A stretch of DNA of 64,000 bases, from assembly GCA_013791935.1 (NCBI GenBank), contig VMSV01000238.1:1-64000 (forward strand), read 5' to 3'. Origin of the DNA: Desulfobacteraceae bacterium. GTDB lineage: Bacteria > Desulfobacterota > Desulfobacteria > Desulfobacterales > UBA5616. Both the position numbers and the translations under genes were made by a program. Numbering within the stretch: the stretch's first letter is position 1; each line of letters starts with the position of its first letter. Below, in pieces: positions 18,599 to 64,000 of the stretch. The notes under the pieces were generated by a model. That model worked only from the letters and a program-made list of their open reading frames with translations, had not been told where the DNA came from and did not search any database.

Positions 18599-18633
18599 AA
18601 TCGGGGATTTACGTTCATCCCCGATTCGTTTTT
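18599..18633. terminator. intrinsic terminator after tRNA-Gly and integrase
   Basis: AATCGGGGAT pairs with ATCCCCGATT around an 8-base loop, followed by CGTTTTT. On the - strand the stem is followed by TTTTAT. It can stop the tRNA transcript and the integrase transcript coming the other way; the integrase stop codon lies inside it. Confidence 0.85.
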
Positions 18634-19826
18634 GGTGGCACCACCGTGGCACCACCCTTGAGTGGCACCACCTTCCCTTTTTTCTCAGCGGTAGCCTTCA
18701 CAATATCAAAGGAAAAATCATCCACCTGGCAATATCGGTCAAAGGCTTTGTTCGTTTCATGGCCGGATGATTCCTTAGCTTTTTCGCGGCCAAATTCCAC
18801 CGCTCTCCATGTTGTGGTACTGTGCCGGGTCCCGCCATAAAGATCCACACCTTCAATCCCGAGATTCGTGCAAGCCTGCTTCCAGTATTTCCAAAAAAAG
18901 TGGACCCCGAAAGCCTGGTCAGCTTTTACACCCCTGGTCTTTGTGGTGTGCCGGAAAAAAGGCATATCGGGATGGCCGGGGAATTCGGCTTTCATGTTTG
19001 AGATTTCGTCAATGTGGTAATCGAGCAAGCGGATACGGATTACCTTGTTTTTGTCTTTCTTCTTGGTAGGGCGCCAAAAGGTGATAATCCCGTTTTTGTG
19101 GTCAACATCTTTTTCTTTGATTTTTAGAAGATCACCCGGGCGGATGTTGGTATGCAGACTCAGGATATCAATACCAAGCCATATTTTAGGATTGTCCACA
19201 TAAGATATCGCGCGGACCTCTTCAATAATTTTAGCCTGGGTATCCATATCAACCATATTTCGATAGGCAAGCTGGTATGGGATATCCGGAATTTTCGGAG
19301 CCTGGGACAGCGTGATTATTTCAAGATCATCCACCAGGAAGTTGAAAAAGAAATCATGAAGGGCACTGGCGTGATTGTGGCGGGTCTTTTCGGAGATTCC
19401 TTTTATCATATAAAGGAACTCTTTAATATCGGCCTTCTTGATCGATTTGACGTTTCTATCCTTAAAGAATTCTAGTGCCCGGACCATGTAATTTCGGATG
19501 TTACCGATGGATTTCATGCCGGTGCGTTCTTTTTCTTCAAGGAATTGTTCAGCGAGGCCCGCGAATCCGAGTGGATTATCGGCTTGATAATCCCTCATGT
19601 CAAAAGATCCTTTGTCAGTTTCAAATCTGAGGCCCATCAGAAACCGGCTTGCGGCCTGATAATGTTGAAACTGCCTTCTGACATTGCGCCCGAATTTAAC
19701 TATGAAACGACGGGACGCTGCAATGGTTCGATGTTCCGGACAAAAAAGACCCTGCCTGCGTTCGTCATGCTCAAATGCAGAGCCACAAACAGGGCATTTA
19801 TCTTTTGAATAAATTGACCCAAGCAT
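18615..19826 (-). CDS. int: phage tyrosine integrase with N-terminal zinc ribbon
   Basis: Integrates the prophage into tRNA-Gly. I start it at the ATG at 19826, which has GGGGGGAT upstream; the track's start at 19886 adds 20 residues. The 403-residue protein opens with a zinc-ribbon-like C11-C14-C29-H32 (CPVCGS...FCPEH), then a SAM-like core-binding domain (about 85-170), then the catalytic domain. Arg in NIRPGDL, TRHSTTTW, and GHETNKAFDRYCQ (His, nucleophile Tyr) are visible. The usual HxxR box reads GGTR. The C-terminal tail is encoded by the 11-base repeats. Confidence 0.93.
   Translation of the reverse strand: MLGSIYSKDKCPVCGSAFEHDERRQGLFCPEHRTIAASRRFIVKFGRNVRRQFQHYQAASRFLMGLRFETDKGSFDMRDYQADNPLGFAGLAEQFLEEKERTGMKSIGNIRNYMVRALEFFKDRNVKSIKKADIKEFLYMIKGISEKTRHNHASALHDFFFNFLVDDLEIITLSQAPKIPDIPYQLAYRNMVDMDTQAKIIEEVRAISYVDNPKIWLGIDILSLHTNIRPGDLLKIKEKDVDHKNGIITFWRPTKKKDKNKVIRIRLLDYHIDEISNMKAEFPGHPDMPFFRHTTKTRGVKADQAFGVHFFWKYWKQACTNLGIEGVDLYGGTRHSTTTWRAVEFGREKAKESSGHETNKAFDRYCQVDDFSFDIVKATAEKKGKVVPLKGGATVVPPKTNRG
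18635..18672. repeat. three 11-base direct repeats (GTGGCACCACC)
   Basis: Exact copies at 18635-18645, 18646-18656 and 18662-18672, the first two directly adjacent. They lie inside the 3' end of the integrase gene, about 50 bases from the tRNA. The place and spacing suit arm-type integrase or excisionase binding sites. Confidence 0.8.
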
Positions 19827-19882
19827 ACAATCCCCCCATGTTTGGTTTATGGGGGCCATATTATATTTATGGGGGGATGGTG

Positions 19883-20083
19883 TCAAATCGGTTTAATCTC
19901 ATTAAGAGTTGTCAAAGCCAATTCCATGCATTGTTTTGCGTCAAGCCCATGGCTGGCAATAGATTCAAGGGCGTCTTTCATTTTTCTAAATTTATGCTCA
20001 AGAACCCTTGTTGAAAACGCTTCGCACTGATCAAAAACAACCGGGGGCATTTCATCCCAGGTTTTAACTATTTTGGGTCCCAT
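19883..20083 (-). CDS. small phage protein, unknown
   Basis: 66 residues, mostly helical and charged. It starts ten bases after the stop of the gene before it, in the leftward operon just ahead of int. No clear ribosome-binding site, so translation is probably coupled. The place next to int would suit an excisionase, but no helix-turn-helix is evident. Confidence 0.55.
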   Translation of the reverse strand: MGPKIVKTWDEMPPVVFDQCEAFSTRVLEHKFRKMKDALESIASHGLDAKQCMELALTTLNEIKPI

Positions 20084-22220: not shown

Positions 22221-22454
22221 TTATTTACATTGGTTTAGATATTTGAAATATTTTTCACGGCTCATGTTTGCCGTGCGCATGTTGGATTTGATTATTTCTG
22301 TGTCAATTTCGCTATAAACCGGAATTATGACAGGGCGAGCAATTCCCTTTTTGGAATAAGAGCGATGGCTGCTGCTTTGGCGGACAAAAACAAAACCATC
22401 CTTAAAAAATACACATTCTAAAACCTTCCATCCTATGGGGGTTATGCGTGGCAA
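22221..22454 (-). CDS. hicA: HicA-family toxin (mRNA interferase)
   Basis: HicA toxins cut mRNA through a small double-stranded-RNA-binding-like fold. The 77-residue protein has MPRITPIGWKVLECVFFKDGF, the catalytic His in SSSHRSYSKKG, and IIPVYSEIDTEIIKSNMR. All fit the YcfA/HicA family. Its start overlaps the end of hicB by 13 bases, as expected for a coupled pair in the order hicB-hicA. Confidence 0.9.
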   Translation of the reverse strand: MPRITPIGWKVLECVFFKDGFVFVRQSSSHRSYSKKGIARPVIIPVYSEIDTEIIKSNMRTANMSREKYFKYLNQCK

Positions 22455-22762
22455 GCCTTTGTTCCAAGTTGATTCGCAAGGAGGTGGATGGGGATATTTA
22501 TATAATCTTCTTGATTGGTGCTTGATGCAGGCGCTTCAGACGTTCTGAACCCGCACTGTTTTAAAACCTCGTTCAGGGTGCCCATCTCGATACTTGTGCT
22601 CAAAAACAAGGTCAAGGCATCTATAAGGCTATCACGGGCCTTTTTTTCTGTATCTCCCTGAGTCACTACATCAAGAATGGGGCATGATGCAATATACCAC
22701 TTTCTTTTTTTTAAAAGCTTCACAGGCAGCCTAAACTTTAATTCAATTGTTAATTTTTGCAT
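22442..22762 (-). CDS. hicB: HicB-family antitoxin
   Basis: 106 residues. The N-terminal part, KKRKWYIASCPILDVVTQGDTEKKARDSLIDAL, is the HicB partial RNase H-like fold that covers the toxin active site. No clear C-terminal DNA-binding domain is seen, so self-regulation may differ from HicB types with a helix-turn-helix. It lies between the 71-residue gene and hicA. Confidence 0.87.
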   Translation of the reverse strand: MQKLTIELKFRLPVKLLKKRKWYIASCPILDVVTQGDTEKKARDSLIDALTLFLSTSIEMGTLNEVLKQCGFRTSEAPASSTNQEDYINIPIHLLANQLGTKACHA

Positions 22763-23292: not shown

Positions 23293-23727
23293 TTACACTG
23301 TGCCGGTTCGTTTTTTTATATCATACAGCCGGACCTCTTTTTCCAGCGACGCTTTTATTTCCGCCACCAGCTCCGGGAACGGTCTTTCCACCTCGGCATT
23401 CTCATTAATTTCCGCAATGCATTTCTTCAGCTCCGGGTATTCCTCCATAGCCTTTGTGGATAGGGTCCACTCGCCAGGGGCAGCGGTTGCTGTTGTGGAG
23501 GCTGGGGCTTTTTCACCAGTTAAAATCCAATCTACAGAAACGTTGCCAGCCGTAGCAATCTTTAACAACATAATCCCACCAGGAATCGATCCAGCTATAT
23601 ATTTTCTAAATAATTGATCTGATATCCCGGATTTTTTTGCAAAAGCGGCTATCGACTCATCTTTGTCGGCAAGGAGCTTTATTCTATCTGAAATTTCCAA
23701 TGCTAAATTATAGTTGTATTTTTTCAT
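23293..23727 (-). CDS. CI-type phage repressor without peptidase domain
   Basis: 144 residues. The N-terminal helix-turn-helix (about 10-70: LADKDESIAAFAKKSGISDQ...GGIMLLKIATAGNVSVDWILTG) is of the Bacteriophage CI repressor type. The C-terminal part is a short helical segment, with no S24/LexA Ser-Lys peptidase. Induction therefore probably does not use RecA-driven self-cleavage. It is divergent from the cro-like gene with 36 bases between starts, and lies beside a candidate operator. Confidence 0.85.
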   Translation of the reverse strand: MKKYNYNLALEISDRIKLLADKDESIAAFAKKSGISDQLFRKYIAGSIPGGIMLLKIATAGNVSVDWILTGEKAPASTTATAAPGEWTLSTKAMEEYPELKKCIAEINENAEVERPFPELVAEIKASLEKEVRLYDIKKRTGTV

Positions 23728-23757
23728 TTGACATATTCAACTTTAATTGTGTATTAT
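23728..23757 (+). promoter_or_regulatory. rightward promoter of the cro-like gene
   Basis: Perfect TTGACA (23728-23733), 18-base spacer, TATTAT (23752-23757). The predicted start point falls on or next to the ATG at 23764, so the transcript may be leaderless. On the - strand TATAAT (23758-23753) overlaps it and can serve the repressor gene. Confidence 0.7.
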
Positions 23758-23952: not shown

Positions 23953-24067
23953 AGCAGTTTTTAAATGGCTCGTAAATCGTAAGGCATACGAATTCTGAAT
24001 TTTCATAATATTTAAACTCTTAAAAATCAAGCGATATCCCCAAAACCATTTTTTATGAGGTTAAAAA

Positions 24068-24271
24068 ATGCCAGATTTCGACATCGACAAATGCACGGAA
24101 GTTTTCAATATCCGCATCCCGGAAATTACGAAAAAGAATCTTGATTCACTCCCACAAAATTTAAAGTCAAAACTCAAAGATTTGATTCTGAACGACATGG
24201 AATTGATCATTCACGAATCAAAGTTCAAGCCTGGGCAATATCTTAAAACGAACATTGAAGATTGTCTATGA
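24068..24271 (+). CDS. small early phage protein, unknown
   Basis: 67 residues, GAGG before the ATG at suitable distance. Contains SLPQNLKSKLKDLILNDMELI, a helical segment. No family recognised. First gene after cro in the rightward early region. Confidence 0.6.
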   Translation: MPDFDIDKCTEVFNIRIPEITKKNLDSLPQNLKSKLKDLILNDMELIIHESKFKPGQYLKTNIEDCL

Positions 24272-24296
24272 ATACAATGTCATACTTTGTATTCAT
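24268..24296. repeat. 10-base inverted repeat, operator or weak terminator
   Basis: ATGAATACAA and TTGTATTCAT are nine bases apart and overlap the stop of the gene before. There is no T tract. Placement just ahead of motif A (24336-24362) suggests a regulatory site. Confidence 0.5.
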
Positions 24297-24335
24297 CAAC
24301 ATATTGATTGAATCATTGGTTTAATCACAAGATGC

Positions 24336-24362
24336 GGGAAACCTTGACTTTTCATGTAGGGA
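24336..24362 (+). promoter_or_regulatory. early-region motif, copy A
   Basis: This block matches copy B at 24867-24893 in 21 of 27 bases without gaps (GGAAAC...TTTT.ATGTAGGGA). It ends 35 bases before the ATG at 24398. It contains no good -35/-10 pair, so it may be a promoter needing a phage activator. Confidence 0.55.
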
Positions 24363-24397
24363 GATCCTGACAAGGGAGAATGTTGAAAGGAGTTGAT

Positions 24398-24565
24398 ATG
24401 AAACAGGACAAAGAACGAGCGTGCGAAGAAATAGCGAAAATAATAAAAACCTTATGTAACAAGCATGGTGTGGCCCCATTCTCGTTGAAACTTGGGAACC
24501 AGATAGACCACAGTCAAGGCGGCACCCAATGGGATGGAACTGTTAAGCTGACCATCGGTTGTTAA
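24398..24565 (+). CDS. small early phage protein, unknown
   Basis: From the ATG at 24398 with AAAGGAG six bases upstream; 55 residues. Helical N-terminus (RACEEIAKIIKTLCNKHG) and a short beta-like end (GGTQWDGTVKLTIGC). No family recognised. Confidence 0.65.
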   Translation: MKQDKERACEEIAKIIKTLCNKHGVAPFSLKLGNQIDHSQGGTQWDGTVKLTIGC

Positions 24566-24726
24566 TCCGAATTCGCTTGAATATATGTTTTCTCTGCCCA
24601 TTTAAGGCTTAGTAATATTCTTAACTGTAGGATGTCATTTAAGGACACGTCGAATTCTTTAGTTAAATTTCTACATTCTAATAATAATTCTTTAAAGGCT
24701 GAATATTCGTTTTCGTTCATTAACAT
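24562..24726 (-). CDS. small helical protein on the opposite strand
   Basis: From the ATG at 24726 with AAAAGGAA six bases upstream; 54 residues, all helical (NEYSAFKELLLECRNLTKEF). It runs against the rightward early operon and overlaps the end of the gene at 24398 by four bases. A palindrome cluster lies about 65 bases upstream of its start. Real but unrecognised, moderate confidence. Confidence 0.5.
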   Translation of the reverse strand: MLMNENEYSAFKELLLECRNLTKEFDVSLNDILQLRILLSLKWAEKTYIQANSD

Positions 24727-24790
24727 GATGGATTCCTTTTCTTTACTAATAAATGGGCACATTTTACTTATCATTCATATCGGTCATATT

Positions 24791-24831
24791 GTCTAAAGGT
24801 TTAGACTATTTCTAAAGCACCTTTTTTAGAC
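24791..24831. promoter_or_regulatory. cluster of GTCTAAA half-sites
   Basis: GTCTAAAGGTTTAGAC (24791-24806) is a perfect inverted repeat, and a second, looser pair (TCTAAA and TTTAGAC) follows at about 24811-24831. It lies between the 54-residue - gene and motif B, so it can regulate either direction. Confidence 0.6.
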
Positions 24832-24866
24832 CAGGGATCTGAAGAATGCCAAAATCAAATATTTTC

Positions 24867-24893
24867 AGGAAACACTGTATTTTTATGTAGGGA
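24867..24893 (+). promoter_or_regulatory. early-region motif, copy B
   Basis: Second copy of the motif at 24336-24362; it ends 34 bases before the ATG at 24928, almost the same distance as copy A. The GTAGGG at its end pairs with CCCTAC at 24898-24903. Confidence 0.55.
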
Positions 24894-24927
24894 ATCGCCC
24901 TACACACTTTTAACCCTGGGAGGAAGC

Positions 24928-26142
24928 ATGTCGAATTTGCCAGCAATACGAAATGACTCTATTAATCAAGCTCTTTCGAGCATTAAAGAGCTATCGCCGG
25001 AGGCCTATGGTGTCTTAGCGGCAGTTGTGAGCCAAAATGTTGTTGTTCTTGGAGAGGATGAAGCATTTACCTTGCGGGATAAAGACGGTGAGATCCGGGC
25101 TTTCAGGAAAAAATTAACCTTGTCCGCAAAAAATGGCGGTTTGATTAAGCCGACCCATGATGGACCTCATGTGATATCGGCGCAGGGATATGAGATATGG
25201 GCTGAATCCTCCGGGACCTGTGTTATTTTCCCTAAAGAGGTTTTGGTGGGCAGCGCATTTCTACCCAATCCCTACGCCGAGCGTGATCCTCAAAACCGGC
25301 GTATCCTTGCCGTTCATGCCAGAGCTGTTGCTTTCCGGTTTTCTTCTGTCGGTATCCCGCAGGTAAGCGACTGGACGACAATTTTTGATACCCCTTCCTA
25401 CAGACTGATTGATTTACTGGCCAAGGCCAAAAAGTTTCCCCAGGCCTTTCAGCTTCTTCCCCAAGGGATGACACCCAAAGAAGATGGAACATGGGCAAGT
25501 TACCCTTTTGATGAAAGCACAAGCCTTTTTGTGAATACTCAGCACGAAGAAGCCCTTCAATGGTTTGCCCAGATCCTGAATCGTGAAAAAAAAGCCATGG
25601 ACTTTGCTCAGACTTTCGCCAAAAGAAACGCCCTGAAACATTTATCCGGCCTTCAGAAGGTCCCTGGCGGGGGTGCTGAGTGGACTATTAGCGTTCTTTG
25701 CTGGCGTCCGACTTCCGGTAACATCATTAAATGGGATGGGACCGAATACGCCAATCTTCAGAAGCGTATCGGAAACATGATTGATGGGGATGGAAAAGAG
25801 TTTGATCAGATCGAATATCACCACGGCAAAGAGGCTGTGAGCGACGAACCAGGGTTCGAAGTTCATGAGGCTGAAACAGACCCGGAAGATCAAACACCCA
25901 TTGATACCAAAAATGAACCTCCTGAAGCCGAGCCTGTTCTTGAAAAACAAAATGACCTGCCTGTTTTGTCCGAAGAAGACACCAAACTTATGATGCAGTT
26001 TTCACAACTGGAAAAGGACTTCCCGGATGAAACCGCCCAGGCCCTAAAAGAAATGAACATCCCTGGAAAACCAAAGCCCAATCAAATGAAGCTGGTCTTT
26101 AAAAAGGTCAATCAAATTGTTGACCAGGCAGGGGGTGAATAA
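24928..26142 (+). CDS. unknown phage protein heading the recombination operon
   Basis: 404 residues, GGGAGGAAG before the ATG. The first 270 residues look globular (ending about AKRNALKHLSGLQKV and a Trp-rich segment), then an acidic, Pro-rich linker (about 290-345) and a short helical tail. The operon that follows encodes an SMC-like ATPase, a helicase and SSB, so a single-strand-annealing or recombination-mediator role is possible. I see no RecT, Erf or Bet signature and leave it unnamed. The stop overlaps the next ATG by one base. Confidence 0.75.
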   Translation: MSNLPAIRNDSINQALSSIKELSPEAYGVLAAVVSQNVVVLGEDEAFTLRDKDGEIRAFRKKLTLSAKNGGLIKPTHDGPHVISAQGYEIWAESSGTCVIFPKEVLVGSAFLPNPYAERDPQNRRILAVHARAVAFRFSSVGIPQVSDWTTIFDTPSYRLIDLLAKAKKFPQAFQLLPQGMTPKEDGTWASYPFDESTSLFVNTQHEEALQWFAQILNREKKAMDFAQTFAKRNALKHLSGLQKVPGGGAEWTISVLCWRPTSGNIIKWDGTEYANLQKRIGNMIDGDGKEFDQIEYHHGKEAVSDEPGFEVHEAETDPEDQTPIDTKNEPPEAEPVLEKQNDLPVLSEEDTKLMMQFSQLEKDFPDETAQALKEMNIPGKPKPNQMKLVFKKVNQIVDQAGGE

Positions 26143-27642: not shown

Positions 27643-27824
27643 AAATGCCATACGGAAAATTCAAGGGGCAAGATATTGATAAACTTCCTTCAGGATATTT
27701 GAAATGGGTTGCAGAGAATTTTGACGAAAGTAGAGGCCAGGGCAAGGCCATTTGCAAGGAAGCAGATGAGGAATATCAATTTCGAGAAAAAACAGGAACC
27801 CATTTTTATGAGGAAATGCCATGA
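27639..27824 (+). CDS. DUF3820-family small protein
   Basis: 61 residues from the ATG at 27639, which overlaps the stop before it as ATGA. MPYGKFKGQDIDKLPSGYLKWVAENF is the DUF3820 signature, a short domain often near or fused to exonucleases. Function unproven. It overlaps the helicase gene by four bases. Confidence 0.8.
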   Translation: MKMPYGKFKGQDIDKLPSGYLKWVAENFDESRGQGKAICKEADEEYQFREKTGTHFYEEMP

Positions 27825-29890: not shown

Positions 29891-30679
29891 ATGGCAAGAA
29901 GCAGAATGATACGCCCTGAGTTTTTCGATGATGAAAAGCTCAGTGAGTGCTCACTGAGGGCTCGATTACTATTCATTGCATTGTGGGTGAATAGTGATGA
30001 TTACGGTGTTGTGAAGGGAAATCCCGCATGGTTGAGAGCGCAAGCGTTCCCCTATGACAATGTGGGTCCGAAAGATATCCTGGAGGATTTGAAGTCCCTC
30101 CAAAAAATAAAGAGCATTGCTCCATTCACACATAGCGGTGAATCGTACTACTACATAAGGCATTGGAAAAAGTATCAAAAAGTAAACAGACCTTCCAAAG
30201 AAAATAGAAATCCCGCCCCCCCTCACGAACTACTCACTGAGCCTTCACTGAGCCCTCACGGAATACTCATTGACCAAACAGAAACAGAAACAGAAACAGA
30301 AACAGAAACAGAAACTGAAACAGAATATGATTGCTCGGAGCTGAAAAACAACTCCGAGCCGGAACCAGTTCTCCCTGTCATTGAAATTCCCCTAATTCCA
30401 AAGCATGGAACATATCAGATTTTTCGAAAAGACATCGACGAATGGGAAAAAGATTTTCCGGGTATAGATGTCCATCAGTCCCTGAGAAATTTGAAACAAT
30501 GGAATCTCTCAAGCCCCAACAGGAGAAAGACCAAAGCTGGTATCAGAAAGCACATTACCGGTTGGCTTGCCCGTGATCAGGATAACTCCAAGTGCCAAAA
30601 AAGGGGATCGTTGTTGGAAAATAACATGCAGGCGGCGGTAGAGGCGGAAAGGTTGTTATTTGGCCATGAACCAGAATGA
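29891..30679 (+). CDS. phage replication protein, winged-helix type
   Basis: 262 residues. MARSRMIRPEFFDDEKLSECSLRARLLFIALW and YIRHWKKYQKVNRPS are typical of the N-terminal part of phage replication initiators. A (Glu-Thr) repeat linker (about 130-146) follows, then a C-terminal helical domain resembling DnaD-like parts. It probably binds the origin and recruits the next protein. The linker is coded by eight hexamers. Confidence 0.75.
   Translation: MARSRMIRPEFFDDEKLSECSLRARLLFIALWVNSDDYGVVKGNPAWLRAQAFPYDNVGPKDILEDLKSLQKIKSIAPFTHSGESYYYIRHWKKYQKVNRPSKENRNPAPPHELLTEPSLSPHGILIDQTETETETETETETETEYDCSELKNNSEPEPVLPVIEIPLIPKHGTYQIFRKDIDEWEKDFPGIDVHQSLRNLKQWNLSSPNRRKTKAGIRKHITGWLARDQDNSKCQKRGSLLENNMQAAVEAERLLFGHEPE
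30278..30325 (+). repeat. eight hexanucleotide repeats (ACAGAA)
   Basis: Eight head-to-tail copies, one with a single change (ACTGAA). They encode a Glu-Thr linker in the replication protein. Changes in copy number would keep the frame. Confidence 0.95.
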
Positions 30680-55156: not shown

Positions 55157-58100
55157 ATGGGTCTTTTAGATTTCCAAAGTACTTACACCCCGAAGAAAAA
55201 AACCTTTTATGATGAAGATGAAACAAAGGTTGCGCCCGACATAAAAAAAGCTTTCCAGGAAGGTAAAAAGGTTTTGAAGTCCCAGGTTGAACGGGTCGGA
55301 GATCCGCTTATGCCTATTTCTCAAGACCAGATTGTTGAAATGGGCAAGGCCAGCATCCAGGACCAAAGGGGATATGACTTTCTTGGAGGCGCAAAAGTTC
55401 TTGCAGCCGGGTTGCCACGGGTCCCGGTTCACATGGTAGGCAAAGCAATTGAAACGGTCCAGGGCCAGGCCGGGGCCGATGTGGTGAATCCGGATTTCTT
55501 TGAGCGGATATCCCAAGGGGTCCGGAAGTGGGAATCTGATAAGCAGGCTGAGATAGGGGAAAAGTACAAGGACCGGAAGTTTCTGCCGGGAATTAAAGTT
55601 TCTGATGTTGGTTCTTTGCCGGAAAACCTTGCCTATTCCGTGAACTCAGCCGGGGCCGGTATCGGTGCGGGTATGGCTTCTTCAGCGGCCACCGGTGGAA
55701 ACCCGGTCGCTGGTTATACGGCTGGTATGGCCGCAGCCGGTGAGGTTGCCTATCGTGGTACGACTTATGATTTCATGAGAGAGGTCTTGACCGAGTTTGA
55801 TAATAACCTAAAGACTGAAAGAGGAAGCGGCCTTACTGAGGAAGAACAGACGGTTGTTAAAAATCAGTTTGAAAAAGAAGCCACGGAAACGGGCCTTTGG
55901 GAAGCTTTGCCGGAAGCCATCGGCGGCGGGATAGGGTTTAAAATACTGACCTCTCCACTCAAGGGTATCATGACCAAGATCCTGGGGGAAAAACTCGGGG
56001 AGAAGGCAACCACCAATATCCTTGCCAAAATAGCCGGTAGTCAGATTGAAGAGCTTTCCACGGAAACCATTACGCAGATGGGTCAAACCGATGTCCGGGG
56101 GAGGGCAGGGCTCGAAGGCGGGAAGAAGGTTGACTGGACAAAAGCCGGGGATTGGATTGAAGCTTTAAAAGAAGTCGCTCCCCAAACTGTTCTATTATCC
56201 GCCGTCATGGGCGGAGCAATTGCCGGAGGAAACCGGGTCCACGATAACCGGAAAATCAGGGCCTTGGATAAGTCCATCAAAGACGATGAATACAAGAAGA
56301 TCCCCAATGATGAATTCGGGAATGAGGTTTTAGCCAGGACCCTTGATTATGCCACTGAGCTCCAAAAGACCAGGCCCAAAGAACAGCGGGTTCAAAATGC
56401 CGTCCAAAAACTTACCGATGAGATTGCTTTCCGGAAACAGAGCCCGGATGCAGCCATTGCACCTGAAGAACCGAAAGCGGTTTTTGTTGCAGAGGTTGGC
56501 CGGAAGCTGGCCACGGATGAAATTTCCATAAGTGACATTCAGGAATTAAAGAAAGATCCCAATGTCCAAGGCCTTGGGGTCGATGATGATTTAAACAAGA
56601 TCATCATTTCCAAGAAGGGAGAGGCCCTGGCACCGAAGCCAGAGGAAGAACCTGCCCAGGCTGTTGAAACCCAAGCCCAAGCCGTGGAGCCGGAACAATC
56701 CGCCCTACCTGTGACCCCTGAAGAGGTTCAGGCTCAGGAACCGGAAGCCAATGGCATGCTCCAGATGGAGAGTGAAGACATTGGAGGCCTGGTTCAATGG
56801 GCTGATAGGTTTAATTCCGGACTGGATCAAAAAAGCCAGCGTCAGCTATCCAGTGTGATCGATGGCGCGAAGAAGGGCAACCCGGAAGACATCGAAACCC
56901 TTTGGAAGAATTTTGAGTTTACAACCAACTCTGAAACCGGGGTTTCTCCGCCTGTACCCGAAGATATTAAATCGCTTACGATTTCCACAAATGGAACCAA
57001 CATAGAAAGCTCCGGGGATGAAACCTTTGTTCGGTCTCCCTCAAAGGCTGAGAATGTTGGAGGGAAAGCAAGGCAAACCGGTTTCAACAAGATCCCGGAT
57101 GCCCCTGAAGGATTTGAGAAGGTTTACAAGCCGTATGGGGCTCAAGGGGCTGGTTATTATTATGCGAGAATAGCGGAATCCTCCGTTAACGATATTTCCA
57201 CAAATACCCCTGAAATCGTGAACGCAGAAAGTGTCGGTCAAGGGGAAGTCCCAACTGACAAGGAAACCTTAACAGTTGAAAAACCTCAAGACGAACTTGT
57301 TCAAAAAATTGATTCAGCTATTTCTCTTCCAACCGGACTATCAGGAGCAAAGCCACGTTATTCCTATGGCAATAAGCAATTTGACTTAACTTTCAAAAAC
57401 GATATTGACAAGGCGGCATATATCGCCGCTCAAGAAAAACCATCCAAAAAAGATGCCGAATACCTGAAATTTGTCGCAGAGAAAACCGGATTATCAGAAG
57501 ATGAGATCCGCGACCATGGGCGATCTGTGAAGCAGACAATCAAGGATATTGCGGCGAAGTCGAATGACATCGAGATTATTGTGCCTGGGCACCCAATCGT
57601 TAAAAAGACCGAGGCTGCCCCCTCAACTCCCAAATTAACCACGAAAGAACTAACACCCGTTGATAAAAGCGAAAAAGAACCTCATGGCAAGCGTGAAAAG
57701 GCCATGGCTGAATATAATGCTTTTATTGCCAGCATCCCGCAACACCTGAAAGATAAAGTAGGGGATGTCATAAAAGAAAACCCGATTTCTCCTTCTTCTC
57801 AAAAATTGAGGGTTGCCAGGGCTTTGGCCAAGGCCACAACGGGAGCACAGGCCGAAACCTCAGTTTCAGCAGCCGAAGCACCGGCAGTGCCAAAACCGGT
57901 TGAAAAAAAGGCCGAGACCTCGGAGCCGGTAACCCGAGAAAGCTTCCAGAAAAGCCTTGAAAGAAAAGGGACCGCCATCGGCCCGAACGGTCAAACCTAC
58001 TCTATTCAGGAGCAGGGAGAGGGAAATTATTATGTCCGTACCGTAAAAGACGGTATCAGGTTTGAAAATGGTGGAGGGTATCCGGCCAAGTGGAGCATGG

Positions 58101-61100
58101 AATATGCTAGGCAGAAAGCCGTTGATGAGGCCTTTGGTATAGAATATGAATTCACTTCTCTTGAAACAGGTAAAAAAACCACGGAGACCATTCCGGATAT
58201 ACCGAGTGGAAAGGCTCCTATTGAGAAGGCCGTGGAACCAGCAGTAGAACCGGAGCCCACAGCAGCAGCAGAACCAAAAGCCAAGCCTACCTATGGTGAA
58301 GGAAACAAAGTCTTTACCAAAGAAGCAGCAGACGCAGCCAGGGAACTTTTAAGGAAGAAATTGAGCCGGGTGAGCACCGGGCTTGATCCTGAACTCGTTC
58401 AGGCAGGCATTCAGCTTGCCGGTTACCACATCGAGGCCGGGGCCAGATCCTTTGTGAATTATGCAAAGGCAATGCTTGAAGACCTGGGGGCAGCAGCAAA
58501 ACCTTATCTTCGATCATGGTATGAGGCGGTTAGGTATTATCCTGGATTTGAGAACAAGGACATGACGGAGGCCGCCGATATAGAAAAAGTTGACATTGAC
58601 GATATAACAGACTATAATAATAAGGAAACAGCAGTTAACAAAGGAGGGCAAGATGAACAGATACGCCCAATTAACGAAAGACTTCCTGAAAGAGAAGGCT
58701 CCCAAGAAGGTCAAGGAGATGTCCAGCGACCAATTGAATCAGCTTTGCCAAGCCAAGGCAGAACAGGCGATAAAACAGAAAGAAAGCCTGATAAACGCCG
58801 GGTGGATGGATCACGAAGCCGAGGAAATGGTGAGAGCGGACCTTCTGACTATTCCATAACCAATGCTGATAGCCTTGGTAAAGGTGGACCGAAGCAGAAG
58901 TTCAAAGACAACCTTGCCGCGATACGTCTATTAAAGCAGATCGGAGACCATGGGGATTCACTTGGTTATGATCAGGCCAGACCTGAAGAGCAATCAATCC
59001 TTGTAAAATATGTTGGGTGGGGAGGTCTTCAGCAGGCCTTCAGAAGACCCGATGGCTCCATAGCCAAAGGATGGGAATCTGAGGTTGCAGAACTTGAGGA
59101 TCTTCTTTCCGAAAAAGAATATGCCGCCGCAATCAAATCCACACGAAACGCCCATTACACCAATCAACCTATTATCAAAGCTGTTTATTCTGCCCTTGGG
59201 AGACTCGGGTTCACCCATGGGAAGATTCTTGAGCCTGCCGTAGGGACTGGAAATTTTATAGGGTTAATGCCCAAAAAAACAAGGTCCAAGTCAAGGATAA
59301 CCGGCATTGAGCTCGAACCATTGACCGCTTCAATCTCTAAACAGCTTTACCCGAATCAAAATATCGTCCAGTCCGGATTCCAAAACGTCACCCTCGCACC
59401 GAATTCCTATGATCTTGCAATAGGCAACCCGCCTTTCGGGGATGAGAAGCTTTTCGACCCGGAAAACAAGGATCTCAAAAACTTCTCCATTCATAATTAT
59501 TTCTTTGCCAAATCCCTCAAAGCCATTCGCCCGAATGGTCTCCTTGCCATGGTTGTTTCTTCATCCATGATGGATAAGATCAGCGATTCCCAAAGGTCCT
59601 GGATCAATGACCGGGCTGAATTCCTTGGAGCCATAAGGCTTCCCAATAATGCTTTCAGAGGGAGCGCCGGAACTGACGTTACCACCGATATCGTTTTTTT
59701 GAGAAAACTTGAGGAAGGCGAAACCTCCAAGGGCGAAGCATGGTTGAATTTAAAACGGGTTAAAGGCAATGGGAATGATTGGCGGATAAATGAGTACTTC
59801 GCCAATCATCCGGACATGATGCTTGGAGCATTGGCTCCGAATAAATTGTTTCCTGCCGAGATCGTTGATGGGGTTTACGATGCCGTTCCTGGAATGACGG
59901 CCATTGAGGGAATCGATTTTGAAAAAGCTCTGGCTGAAGCAGTCCAAAGGCTCCCGGAAAAAGTATATAAAGCAGGAAAAACCTTTGAAGAGGTTCAAAA
60001 GGCTAAAATCCTTGTTTCTGATCCTGGATTTGCCATGCCGTTTGGATACACGCTCGACAATAAAGGGCAGGCTACACGGCGGTTACCCGATGTGAATGGG
60101 GAACGGCAATATGAGATGGTCGAGTATGCAGGTGCGCCCATTTCCGGGACTCGCCTTGAACGTTTTAAAGGGTTGCTCGGGTTAAGAGACGATGTCCGTA
60201 GGCTTATCAGGGCTGAAATAGCCGATGATTCTTCCATGGATTCTTTGAGGGCCAAATTAAACAAGGATTATGATGCCTTCATAAAGGAGTTCGGATTCAT
60301 TTCCCAAACCGTCAACGCCAGCGTATTGCAGGATGATCCTTCCGATCTTCCCCTGCTTCGGTCTCTTGAATCGAATTTTGATAAAGGTATTTCAAGGGCG
60401 GTAGCAAGAAGCACGGGCCAAGCGCATAGAGAGCCATCAGCCAAAAAATCAGCCATATTTACAGTAAGAACCAGGGAGCCCTATCGGGAAGTGACAAAGG
60501 CGGATAATGCAAAAGATGGCCTCTTTATCGTTCTCCGGGAAAATGGGTTTGTTGATATCGACCGTATTGCTTCTTTGACCGGGAAAACGGTTGAAGAGGT
60601 TTCTCGGGAGCTGGAAGGAGACATTTTTCAAAATCCGGAAACAGAATCGTGGGAAACGGCTGAATATTATCTTGCCGGGAATGTAAAACAAAAGCTGAAA
60701 GATGCCCAGGCCGCAGCACAAAAAGAACCGTCTTTCCAGGTGAATGTTAAAGAGCTGGAGAAAGTCCAGCCTGAAGATGTCCCACCGGATTTGATTACGT
60801 TTAAAATTGGTGCTTCATGGATGCCGAGCGAAGTGTATGAGGCCTTTTCCAGAGATGTTTTAAAAAGTGATATTCAGGTTCGGCACATTGAAAGCACTGG
60901 AACATGGTCAATAGGGGTTAATTCTTCGTCTCCCACAGAACACGGAACGCCGCAGATATCAGGCATAGAGCTTTATTCAAGGTTGCTTCAGGGCAAAGAA
61001 ATAGCCATCTATGAAAGAGACAAGGACGGGAACCGGTTCTTAAACCGTGACTATACCCAGGCAGCTAAGGATAAGGCTTCGGATCTCCACCAGGCGTTTC

Positions 61101-64000
61101 TGGATTGGGCTTTGTCGAACCAGAGATACAGGGATGTGATCGCCAAAGAATTTAACGACAAAGTCAACACGACAATTGAAACCAAGGCCAACGGTAGCCA
61201 CATGATTTTTCCCGGCATGGGGATCATAAATACAGGGGCAAAAAGAGATGAACAGTTAAGGCCACACCAGAAAAACGCAATATGGAGATTCATCCAGAAA
61301 GGCAAGGGCATTGCAGATCATGTTGTGGGATCAGGTAAGACCTTCATATCGATAGCGACAGGGCTTGAAATGAAGCGCATGGGCCTTGTTAAAAAGCCTA
61401 TGTACGCTGTTCCCAATCATTTGGTGGGGCAATGGGCTTCAGACTTCCAAAAGCTTTATCCCGGGTCAAATGTGCTTGCCGTTACAAAAAAAGATTTTAC
61501 GAAAAAGCGTAGGCAGGAATTTCTTGCCAGGATTGCAACCGGAGATTGGGACGCTGTTTTGATTGCTCATTCTTCTTTCGGCTTTATCAAGATGCCATAT
61601 GAGCATGAATATAAATTTTATCAGGAACAAATCAAACAATACAAGGAGGCTATTGTTGAAATCCGTGCTGCTGAAGGTGCAAAAAGCTTGACCGTAAAAC
61701 AAATGCAGGATGCTCAGGGCAAGCTTGAAGAAAAGCTGAAGAAGCTTTCAGAAAAAGAGAAAGAAAATGTGGTCGATTTTTCAGAATTGGGAGTAGATGC
61801 CCTTTTCGTCGATGAGGCCCATGAATTCAAGAACCTGTTCTATGTGACCAAAAAGACGAGAATCGCAGGTTTGGGGAACCCTGAAGGCTCTAAGAAGGCC
61901 TTTGATATGTTTGTGAAAACTCAATACCTGTTAGATGCGAACAATGACAAAGGAGTCTTCTTTTTAACCGGAACCCCCGTGTCAAATTCAATCTCAGAAA
62001 TGTACACCATGATGCGATACCTGGATTACTCGAAAATGAAGAAGATGGGTATCACGCATTTTGACCAATGGGCCAGCATGTTTGCTGATGATATCACCGA
62101 TTGGGAGGTGGACCCGACCGGAACCAGATACAGGCTTCAAACCAAGCTTGATTTTATGAATGTCCCTGGAATGATGGCTTTCTACAATGACTTTGCGGAT
62201 ACCGTTTCAACCAACGATTTGAAACAAATTTCCAAAGACAATGGCGCGATCTGGCCGATTCCGGAGATTGAAGGCGGTAAACCTGAACTTGCGGTTGCTG
62301 AGAGTTCAGATTTGCAAAAATCTTTTGCCGATTATGTGGTTCATCGATTTGACAACATGCCTAAAGATCCCAAGATCGATAACCCCCTGAAAGCCACAGG
62401 TGAAGCCATGAAGGCCGCTTTGGATATTCGGCTTATAAATCCTTCATTGCCTGATCATCCTGGTTCTAAGGTCAATAAGTGCGTAGAGAATGTTTTCAAG
62501 ACGTATCAGGATTGGGCAAAGAAAAAAGGTACTCAGTTGGTTTTCTGTGATCTTTCGGTGCCGAAAAAAGGCCGGGGAAAACACGCCGCCGAAATCATGG
62601 CGGTTAAAGATGAAATGCGAGAGCTTGAAAAAAGAATGGCCGATGAGACGGACGCAGAAGCTTCCGCAGAACTGGAAGAACGCTATTCAAGCCTGGCTGA
62701 TCAATTTGAAAAATATTCGCCTGCTGAATTGATGGCAGCGGATTCCGAATTTTCAGTTTATGACGATATCAAGGCCAAGCTGATCAAAAAAGGTATTCCT
62801 TCAGATGAAATCGCCTTTATTCATGATGCCAATACCGATATCCAGAAAGAAACCCTGTTCGGAAGCGTGAGGTCCGGCAGTATAAGGGTCCTTATCGGAT
62901 CGACCTCCAAGATGGGCGCGGGTATGAATGTACAAAACAAGTTGGTTGCCCTGCACCATTTGGATGCCCCATGGAGACCTTCAGACCTTGAGCAGAGGGA
63001 GGGCCGAATTGTAAGGCAGGGGAATGAATTTTTCAATGATAGCATGAAAACAGGGGAGCCTTTTAAGGTTAAGGTTTTAAGGTATTCAACCAAGGAATCC
63101 CTTGATACCCGGCGCTGGCAAATCATTGAGAGAAAGGCTTCGACAATTCAACAGCTCCGAAGTGGTGAAACGAAGTGGGGTGAAAAAATAGAGGACGTTT
63201 TAGGGGAGGCTGCAAACGCGGCGGAGATGAAAGCGGCCTCTTCCGGGAACCCTCTTATCCTTGAAGAAATTCAGACCAGAAAAGCTATCGAGAAGCTGGA
63301 AATCAAAAAGCGCAATGACCGCGGAATTCGTTTCAAATATGAAAGAGATATCAGCGCAGCCAACAATATGGAAGGCAGGCTTGAAGACATACTCAAGGAC
63401 ATTGAACGGGATGCCGAGCTTGTGGCAGCCAATCCGAAAGACAAGACCCCTCAAGGATGGGCGGTTCAGATTGATGGTCAGGTCTATAAGGCCAAAGTCG
63501 TTGATGTCCCGACAAATGACAAGCAAGCCGCCAAGGAAGCTGAGGAAAAGAACGCAGAGGCGTTAAAAACTGCCAAGGGAAAATTCGCTAAGGATCTTGG
63601 CAAAGCTTTAAAAAGGTTCGATCAACCGGGTGCCGTTGAAAGCTTTGATGTGGAATACCGTGGCTTAATCTGGAATGTGGACCGAACTGTTTGGGGTGAC
63701 ATAAAATTTATTCCGGACCTGAACGGTTTAGGGCTCCATAATAGAACCCCCAATATCCATTATAACCTGAAAGACGTAGTTTCTCCTGAAGGGCTGCTTG
63801 TCAGGATGGATAATGCCCTGGACGCGATTGTTGAAGGCAAAGATAGGTCTCTTGGAATTCATAAGCGTGAAGCCGATTTTGCTTTTAAGAAAAGAGCAAT
63901 TGCCCAGGCTGAGCTGGCAAAGAAGTCAAATAATTTCGACCAACAGATTGCTGAATTAAAACTTCGTCATTCTCAGATCATTGCAGAGCTGCAAGCCGAT
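55157..64000 (+). CDS. giant polyvalent protein with DarB-like methylase-helicase (3' end outside window)
   Basis: Not in the ORF track because it runs off the window. I read it codon by codon from the ATG at 55157 (AAAGGGG upstream) to 64000: 2948 codons, no stop. N-terminal Gly/Ala-rich hydrophobic segments (about 155-210, 345-360) suit entry into virion or membrane. A conserved helical domain AARELLRKKLSR...AGYHIEAGARSF lies at about 1055-1135. An adenine-methylase-like domain follows, with EPAVGTGNF near 1359 and NPPF at 1424-1427. Then an SNF2-type helicase: VVGSGKT 2056-2062, DEAH 2219-2222, QREGRIVRQGN near 2613. Order and content match DarB-type antirestriction polyvalent proteins that are injected with the DNA. 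A small gene is nested at 58653. Confidence 0.92.
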   Translation, partial: MGLLDFQSTYTPKKKTFYDEDETKVAPDIKKAFQEGKKVLKSQVERVGDPLMPISQDQIVEMGKASIQDQRGYDFLGGAKVLAAGLPRVPVHMVGKAIETVQGQAGADVVNPDFFERISQGVRKWESDKQAEIGEKYKDRKFLPGIKVSDVGSLPENLAYSVNSAGAGIGAGMASSAATGGNPVAGYTAGMAAAGEVAYRGTTYDFMREVLTEFDNNLKTERGSGLTEEEQTVVKNQFEKEATETGLWEALPEAIGGGIGFKILTSPLKGIMTKILGEKLGEKATTNILAKIAGSQIEELSTETITQMGQTDVRGRAGLEGGKKVDWTKAGDWIEALKEVAPQTVLLSAVMGGAIAGGNRVHDNRKIRALDKSIKDDEYKKIPNDEFGNEVLARTLDYATELQKTRPKEQRVQNAVQKLTDEIAFRKQSPDAAIAPEEPKAVFVAEVGRKLATDEISISDIQELKKDPNVQGLGVDDDLNKIIISKKGEALAPKPEEEPAQAVETQAQAVEPEQSALPVTPEEVQAQEPEANGMLQMESEDIGGLVQWADRFNSGLDQKSQRQLSSVIDGAKKGNPEDIETLWKNFEFTTNSETGVSPPVPEDIKSLTISTNGTNIESSGDETFVRSPSKAENVGGKARQTGFNKIPDAPEGFEKVYKPYGAQGAGYYYARIAESSVNDISTNTPEIVNAESVGQGEVPTDKETLTVEKPQDELVQKIDSAISLPTGLSGAKPRYSYGNKQFDLTFKNDIDKAAYIAAQEKPSKKDAEYLKFVAEKTGLSEDEIRDHGRSVKQTIKDIAAKSNDIEIIVPGHPIVKKTEAAPSTPKLTTKELTPVDKSEKEPHGKREKAMAEYNAFIASIPQHLKDKVGDVIKENPISPSSQKLRVARALAKATTGAQAETSVSAAEAPAVPKPVEKKAETSEPVTRESFQKSLERKGTAIGPNGQTYSIQEQGEGNYYVRTVKDGIRFENGGGYPAKWSMEYARQKAVDEAFGIEYEFTSLETGKKTTETIPDIPSGKAPIEKAVEPAVEPEPTAAAEPKAKPTYGEGNKVFTKEAADAARELLRKKLSRVSTGLDPELVQAGIQLAGYHIEAGARSFVNYAKAMLEDLGAAAKPYLRSWYEAVRYYPGFENKDMTEAADIEKVDIDDITDYNNKETAVNKGGQDEQIRPINERLPEREGSQEGQGDVQRPIESALPSQGRTGDKTERKPDKRRVDGSRSRGNGESGPSDYSITNADSLGKGGPKQKFKDNLAAIRLLKQIGDHGDSLGYDQARPEEQSILVKYVGWGGLQQAFRRPDGSIAKGWESEVAELEDLLSEKEYAAAIKSTRNAHYTNQPIIKAVYSALGRLGFTHGKILEPAVGTGNFIGLMPKKTRSKSRITGIELEPLTASISKQLYPNQNIVQSGFQNVTLAPNSYDLAIGNPPFGDEKLFDPENKDLKNFSIHNYFFAKSLKAIRPNGLLAMVVSSSMMDKISDSQRSWINDRAEFLGAIRLPNNAFRGSAGTDVTTDIVFLRKLEEGETSKGEAWLNLKRVKGNGNDWRINEYFANHPDMMLGALAPNKLFPAEIVDGVYDAVPGMTAIEGIDFEKALAEAVQRLPEKVYKAGKTFEEVQKAKILVSDPGFAMPFGYTLDNKGQATRRLPDVNGERQYEMVEYAGAPISGTRLERFKGLLGLRDDVRRLIRAEIADDSSMDSLRAKLNKDYDAFIKEFGFISQTVNASVLQDDPSDLPLLRSLESNFDKGISRAVARSTGQAHREPSAKKSAIFTVRTREPYREVTKADNAKDGLFIVLRENGFVDIDRIASLTGKTVEEVSRELEGDIFQNPETESWETAEYYLAGNVKQKLKDAQAAAQKEPSFQVNVKELEKVQPEDVPPDLITFKIGASWMPSEVYEAFSRDVLKSDIQVRHIESTGTWSIGVNSSSPTEHGTPQISGIELYSRLLQGKEIAIYERDKDGNRFLNRDYTQAAKDKASDLHQAFLDWALSNQRYRDVIAKEFNDKVNTTIETKANGSHMIFPGMGIINTGAKRDEQLRPHQKNAIWRFIQKGKGIADHVVGSGKTFISIATGLEMKRMGLVKKPMYAVPNHLVGQWASDFQKLYPGSNVLAVTKKDFTKKRRQEFLARIATGDWDAVLIAHSSFGFIKMPYEHEYKFYQEQIKQYKEAIVEIRAAEGAKSLTVKQMQDAQGKLEEKLKKLSEKEKENVVDFSELGVDALFVDEAHEFKNLFYVTKKTRIAGLGNPEGSKKAFDMFVKTQYLLDANNDKGVFFLTGTPVSNSISEMYTMMRYLDYSKMKKMGITHFDQWASMFADDITDWEVDPTGTRYRLQTKLDFMNVPGMMAFYNDFADTVSTNDLKQISKDNGAIWPIPEIEGGKPELAVAESSDLQKSFADYVVHRFDNMPKDPKIDNPLKATGEAMKAALDIRLINPSLPDHPGSKVNKCVENVFKTYQDWAKKKGTQLVFCDLSVPKKGRGKHAAEIMAVKDEMRELEKRMADETDAEASAELEERYSSLADQFEKYSPAELMAADSEFSVYDDIKAKLIKKGIPSDEIAFIHDANTDIQKETLFGSVRSGSIRVLIGSTSKMGAGMNVQNKLVALHHLDAPWRPSDLEQREGRIVRQGNEFFNDSMKTGEPFKVKVLRYSTKESLDTRRWQIIERKASTIQQLRSGETKWGEKIEDVLGEAANAAEMKAASSGNPLILEEIQTRKAIEKLEIKKRNDRGIRFKYERDISAANNMEGRLEDILKDIERDAELVAANPKDKTPQGWAVQIDGQVYKAKVVDVPTNDKQAAKEAEEKNAEALKTAKGKFAKDLGKALKRFDQPGAVESFDVEYRGLIWNVDRTVWGDIKFIPDLNGLGLHNRTPNIHYNLKDVVSPEGLLVRMDNALDAIVEGKDRSLGIHKREADFAFKKRAIAQAELAKKSNNFDQQIAELKLRHSQIIAELQAD
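58653..58859 (+). CDS. small gene nested in the giant ORF in another frame
   Basis: 68 residues (MNRYAQLTKDFLKEKAPKKV onward), preceded by AAAGGAGG five bases before the ATG, the best ribosome-binding site in this part. From memory, short proteins starting MNRY...A are found just before DarB-like genes in other phages, which supports a real gene. The giant frame here encodes a low-complexity, charged linker (residues about 1166-1235), unlike the domains on both sides. Function unknown. Confidence 0.65.
   Translation: MNRYAQLTKDFLKEKAPKKVKEMSSDQLNQLCQAKAEQAIKQKESLINAGWMDHEAEEMVRADLLTIP

Follow-up and report, generated by a model that had tools for sequence, protein, structure and literature searches.

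Gene order and promoters in the early region of the prophage

The stretch of DNA that we analysed (64,000 nucleotides, hereafter the window) contains a temperate phage inside a bacterial contig. Its integrase-like gene and the features of its early region are as follows.

18615-19886, minus strand: integrase-like gene, assigned by reading
23293-23727, minus strand: CI-like repressor gene
23706-23748: imperfect inverted repeat of 43 bp between the CI-like and Cro-like genes, overlapping the PR-like promoter including its -35
23728-23757, plus strand: PR-like sigma70 promoter, TTGACA-18-TATTAT, before the Cro-like gene
23764 (start), plus strand: Cro-like HTH gene
24068-24271, plus strand: 67-aa gene, following the Cro-like gene
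24263-24301: palindrome surrounding the 67-aa gene's stop codon, 5' of copy 1
24305-24327: imperfect palindrome TGATTGAATCATTGGTTTAATCA, 9 nt 5' of copy 1
24337-24362, plus strand: copy 1 of a 26-nt block, GGAAACCTTGACTTTTCATGTAGGGA, before the 55-aa gene (direct reading and repeat search)
24398-24565, plus strand: 55-aa early gene with Shine-Dalgarno AAAGGAG (list of open reading frames)
24562-24726, minus strand: 54-aa open reading frame between the two units (list of open reading frames)
24791-24806: perfect palindrome GTCTAAAGGTTTAGAC, 61 nt 5' of copy 2
24868-24893, plus strand: copy 2 of the block, GGAAACACTGTATTTTTATGTAGGGA, before the 404-aa gene (direct reading and repeat search)
24886-24904, plus strand: perfect 7-bp hairpin TGTAGGG-AATCG-CCCTACA, the left arm of which is the end of copy 2
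24928-26142, plus strand: 404-aa gene (phrog_32428, function unknown), first of a DNA-replication/recombination operon

The run of genes opened by the 404-aa gene includes an SbcC-like pair and genes for a UvrD-like helicase, a replication initiator, SSB (by reading) and a Holliday junction resolvase. (Between the two SbcC-like genes there was no sign of a frameshift, and the two are separate in most of the relatives checked too.) The 55-aa protein could be assigned to no family, and neither viral contigs nor 194 genomes of the order contained a detectable relative of it. Among the proteins scanned, the CI-like and Cro-like proteins were the sole transcription regulators recognised, and no activator gene was found.

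The PR-like promoter scored 12.1 bits in a weighted scan, and no other forward promoter of the early region is strong; the 43-bp inverted repeat that overlaps it is probably the CI/Cro operator. The palindromes in the two downstream intergenic regions, one of which (24791-24806) reads GTCTA-N6-TAGAC, are distinct from the 26-nt block and themselves look like operators. The presence of separate operator-like palindromes in each intergenic region makes separate control of the two units plausible, and the minus-strand open reading frame that lies between the units makes it plausible that the second is transcribed separately.

A 26-nt block is paired at near-constant distance from two start codons

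The two copies of the block are identical at 21 of 26 positions, differing by five substitutions and no indel. A preliminary description had reported a 27-base motif with 21 ungapped matches, and direct reading bears this out if the preceding base (24336 or 24867) is counted. It had also placed the motif 35 and 34 bases before the start codons, and these distances, from copy 1 to the ATG at 24398 and from copy 2 to the ATG at 24928, were confirmed. The edges of the block are sharp: in the same register, identity is 21/26 inside, 11/30 upstream and 5/35 downstream, so that the flanks of both copies are at background identity. The block is asymmetric, with no inverted repeat inside, and it ends 24-25 nt 5' of the Shine-Dalgarno sequence. 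Each copy contains two GGA motifs and an AUG-UAG start-stop.

The preliminary description was likewise right that the block lacks a good sigma70 pair. With the hexamers spaced at 16-18 bp, no plus-strand sequence between 23757 and 25966 matched at 9 of 12 positions, and in a weighted scan of both intergenic regions the best scores equalled those of shuffled sequence (p 0.54 and 0.64).

How often a likeness of this kind would arise by chance depends on what is compared. With shuffling confined to the two intergenic regions or to the 70-nt leaders, the score was never reached (0 of 1000 and 0 of 2000 shuffles). In a family-wise shuffle test, in which the upstream regions of 45 prophage genes were compared at the same offset (within 1 nt) from the start codon, a same-offset pair this similar turned up in 8 of 1500 shuffled sets (all 990 pairs of the 45 gene starts). 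With the offset ignored, one other pair scored 17 vs 16 for the block pair (2926 ORF leaders). The similarity of two leaders alone is thus neither unique nor decisive; it is the shared offset, together with the adjacency of the genes, that indicates that the repeat is probably no accident. At a family-wise rate of about 0.5%, the repeat is probably not due to chance.

The block is private to the prophage

Exactly two copies, neither of them in coding sequence, were found in the window; with up to 3 mismatches allowed, the 4.7-Mb genome as a whole added none. A profile HMM built from the two copies found no third across the window (next best E = 2.7). A relaxed pattern gave extra matches in the 4.7-Mb genome, mostly in long open frames and in numbers similar to those of controls. 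Exact-pattern scans of IMG/VR with 21 and with 17 fixed bases gave zero matches, and in a survey of 390 genomes of the order no copy was found apart from a single unrelated 2-mismatch match (G319/L017); this match consists of tandem GGAAACAATTCTTTTTA units upstream of an unrelated host gene and was rejected as a copy. A position with a good profile score in L009 (958) lies inside coding sequence.

Homologues of the 404-aa protein, 43-59% identical, were collected from viral and genome contigs. The block was absent within 130 nt of the start at 35 of 35 loci of these homologues, two of which (L003 and L005) have TTGACA-type sequences upstream of the start instead. Several homologues (L008, L010-L012, L021 and others) share CTCCTGCGGGGAGCAAAAACAAGC before the gene; by eye, this looks like the end of a small cysteine-containing protein, and we dropped it as a regulatory candidate. 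The block was also absent at homologues of the 67-aa gene (L057/L013, and L058 and its copies). At the level of DNA, nothing genuinely matching the region came up among 390 genomes of the class, phage records or plasmids, and searching for relatives with the 55-aa, CI-like and terminase proteins yielded nothing of use for the early region.

The block is private to this prophage. The preliminary description had proposed, as a check on its reading, that further copies be sought in the prophage; the pattern searches of prophage and genome gave none, nor did the profile HMM in the window. It had also tied that reading to conservation in related phages. None was seen, which counts against the reading weakly, as the downstream protein of these relatives is no more than 59% identical and the genes preceding it are different ones.

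Possible roles of the paired block

The block is a small, real repeat private to the phage, where it probably serves as a control site. The reading that we favour, tentatively and at a little under even confidence, is that the two blocks are instances of the same short cis-acting site, one confined to the prophage and standing at the head of two early transcription units. Such a site would head the single 55-aa gene on the one hand and the DNA-replication/recombination operon starting at 24928 on the other. The block lies about where a promoter core or a regulator binding site would be expected, and it would set the 5' end of a short leader before each Shine-Dalgarno sequence; because of this position, a promoter core or activator site is the best single guess. 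A DNA-binding factor, encoded by the phage or by the host, would most likely act at the block, together with the upstream palindromes, and so set the transcription of both units. Action on DNA, a start of transcription at the block and a joint response of the two units are what we infer.

In favour of a cis-acting site are the same-offset similarity, the sharp edges, the restriction to two copies, and the presence of palindromes without a sigma70 promoter. Against it are the fact that there are just two copies and none at the homologues, that no known promoter or activator consensus fits, and that the proteins scanned included no recognisable activator. Moreover, transcription reading through from PR could supply both genes, with no need for a second promoter, and two copies without a counterpart in related viruses cannot establish a role. 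Thus, where the preliminary description had seen a phage-specific promoter or activator site, what stands is a real, prophage-private block with fixed spacing, with palindromes nearby and no sigma70 promoter; nothing shows that it acts as promoter or activator. The further suggestion that the site switches on both units together found no support.

Alternatively, the pair may be functionless, either a piece of leader that was copied by recombination in a mosaic phage genome or a chance similarity. We regard this as somewhat unlikely. The confinement of the repeat to two copies in the genome, its lack of conservation in relatives and the existence in the prophage of another ORF-leader pair that scores as high with the offset ignored are all compatible with it, and a family-wise chance of about 0.5% is not negligible, given that the pair was picked out by a reader scanning the whole window. 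The two genes are, however, adjacent, on the same strand and at equal distance from the block, the edges of which are sharp, and the copies differ by five substitutions but no indel.

The main functional rival to a promoter or activator site is a role in RNA, in which the block would be part of a 5' untranslated leader that sets translation or stability, like the start-associated sequences discussed below, a site for a GGA-binding protein or a hairpin leader. This we consider unlikely. The constant distance to the start codon would suit such an element, as would the GGA motifs and AUG-UAG start-stops of both copies, and copy 2 ends in the 7-bp hairpin (-10 kcal/mol). Copy 1, however, forms a weak hairpin only, nothing of the strength of that of copy 2, and folds no better than shuffled sequence; the pairing arm of the hairpin lies outside the shared block, and the distance from the block to the Shine-Dalgarno sequence also argues against an RNA element. 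An Rfam scan of the region gave no match beyond one sub-threshold chance match elsewhere in the region. Similar T-tract/ATGAGG strings in the leaders of the 67-aa and UvrD-like genes would extend the likeness to four leaders. (The corresponding pattern, TTTT(C/T)ATG(T)AGG, was found four times, at 24050, 24349, 24880 and 27803, vs 0.2 expected.) We rejected this family, which was drawn up post hoc and was not recovered by an unbiased search; the instance at 27803 is in coding sequence.

It is very unlikely that the block is an operator for the phage's own CI-like or Cro-like repressor: the genes for both lie 0.4-1.6 kb upstream and temperate phages normally keep their early units repressed in the lysogen, but the block has no inverted repeat and does not significantly resemble the CI/Cro intergenic region (p 0.7-1.0, both strands), and the separate palindromes are better operator candidates.

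The most far-reaching version of the favoured cis-acting site, in which a phage factor that escaped recognition, either a regulator or one that modifies the polymerase, would bind the block and turn on both units as an early regulon without a sigma70 core promoter, making this a new promoter class in phages of the order, is a speculation to which we give very little weight. A search for a single-subunit phage RNA polymerase (PF00940) had no match in the genome, but control genomes were silent too. (A T7-like promoter was considered and rejected; copy 1 reads TAGGGAGA, and copy 2 does not.)

If functional, the block would serve as a compact handle for studying how early genes are controlled in a prophage group whose transcription has received little study. 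If functionless, it would be a reminder that a matching pair of leaders is weak evidence without relatives.

Comparison with known systems

The nearest known kind of element is the start-associated sequence (SAS, with ESAS) of the Cluster K mycobacteriophages, which has the consensus GGGATAGGAGCCC, lies 3-7 bp from the start and overlaps the Shine-Dalgarno sequence (PMC3203893, PMC12699233). SAS occurs in many copies and is conserved across subclusters, and its function is unproven (PMC3203893, PMC12699233). Like the SAS, the block is a short, asymmetric, phage-private repeat in one orientation at a near-constant distance before non-structural genes; unlike it, the block is 26 nt long, lies 34-35 nt from the start, has two copies and is unconserved. 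An SAS follows its consensus with up to 2 deviations and lies a few bp from the start codon, and the block differs in both sequence and distance; in place of many copies conserved among related phages there are two, absent in relatives.

In the middle promoter Pm of phage Mu, the phage activator Mor recognises a 16-bp element made up of two 5-bp inverted repeats (PMC4390567). The proposed role of the block, a phage-specific site that replaces a good -35 element, is similar, but a Mor site would show such an element ahead of a -10, and the block contains no inverted repeat. The palindrome GTCTA-N6-TAGAC (24791-24806) does have the geometry of a Mor site; no suitable -10 was found for it, and no Mor-like gene was found among the proteins scanned. 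Note that this palindrome is found at one place in the window and at one in L013 (1335-1350), in the latter directly after the homologue of the 67-aa gene, with a third match in L042; the recurrence may reflect a shared operator or chance.

The arrangement as a whole resembles a lambda-type early region, in that CI-like and Cro-like genes diverge, an operator-like repeat and PR are present, and early genes and a replication/recombination operon follow. To our knowledge, a paired 26-nt block of this kind is no standard part of such regions.

Other features of the prophage

Small proteins of other viral contigs (L013, 1366-1557; L058, 2986-3177) share about 51% identity with the 67-aa protein; their genes, as here, always directly follow a small HTH gene, but the genes after them differ from those here. 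The two thus form a conserved early gene pair of unknown function. A HicB-like gene (22442-22762, minus strand; phrog_497, E 0.002) overlaps a small open reading frame (22221-22454) that resembles HicA by reading, and together these are a probable toxin-antitoxin pair adjoining the immunity region. Within the replication initiator gene, tandem AAACAG units (30276-30323) encode a (TE)n run and may be iteron-like or just low-complexity. In the late part of the prophage, a giant open reading frame (55157-64000, plus strand) is at least 2948 aa long and is cut short by the end of the window.
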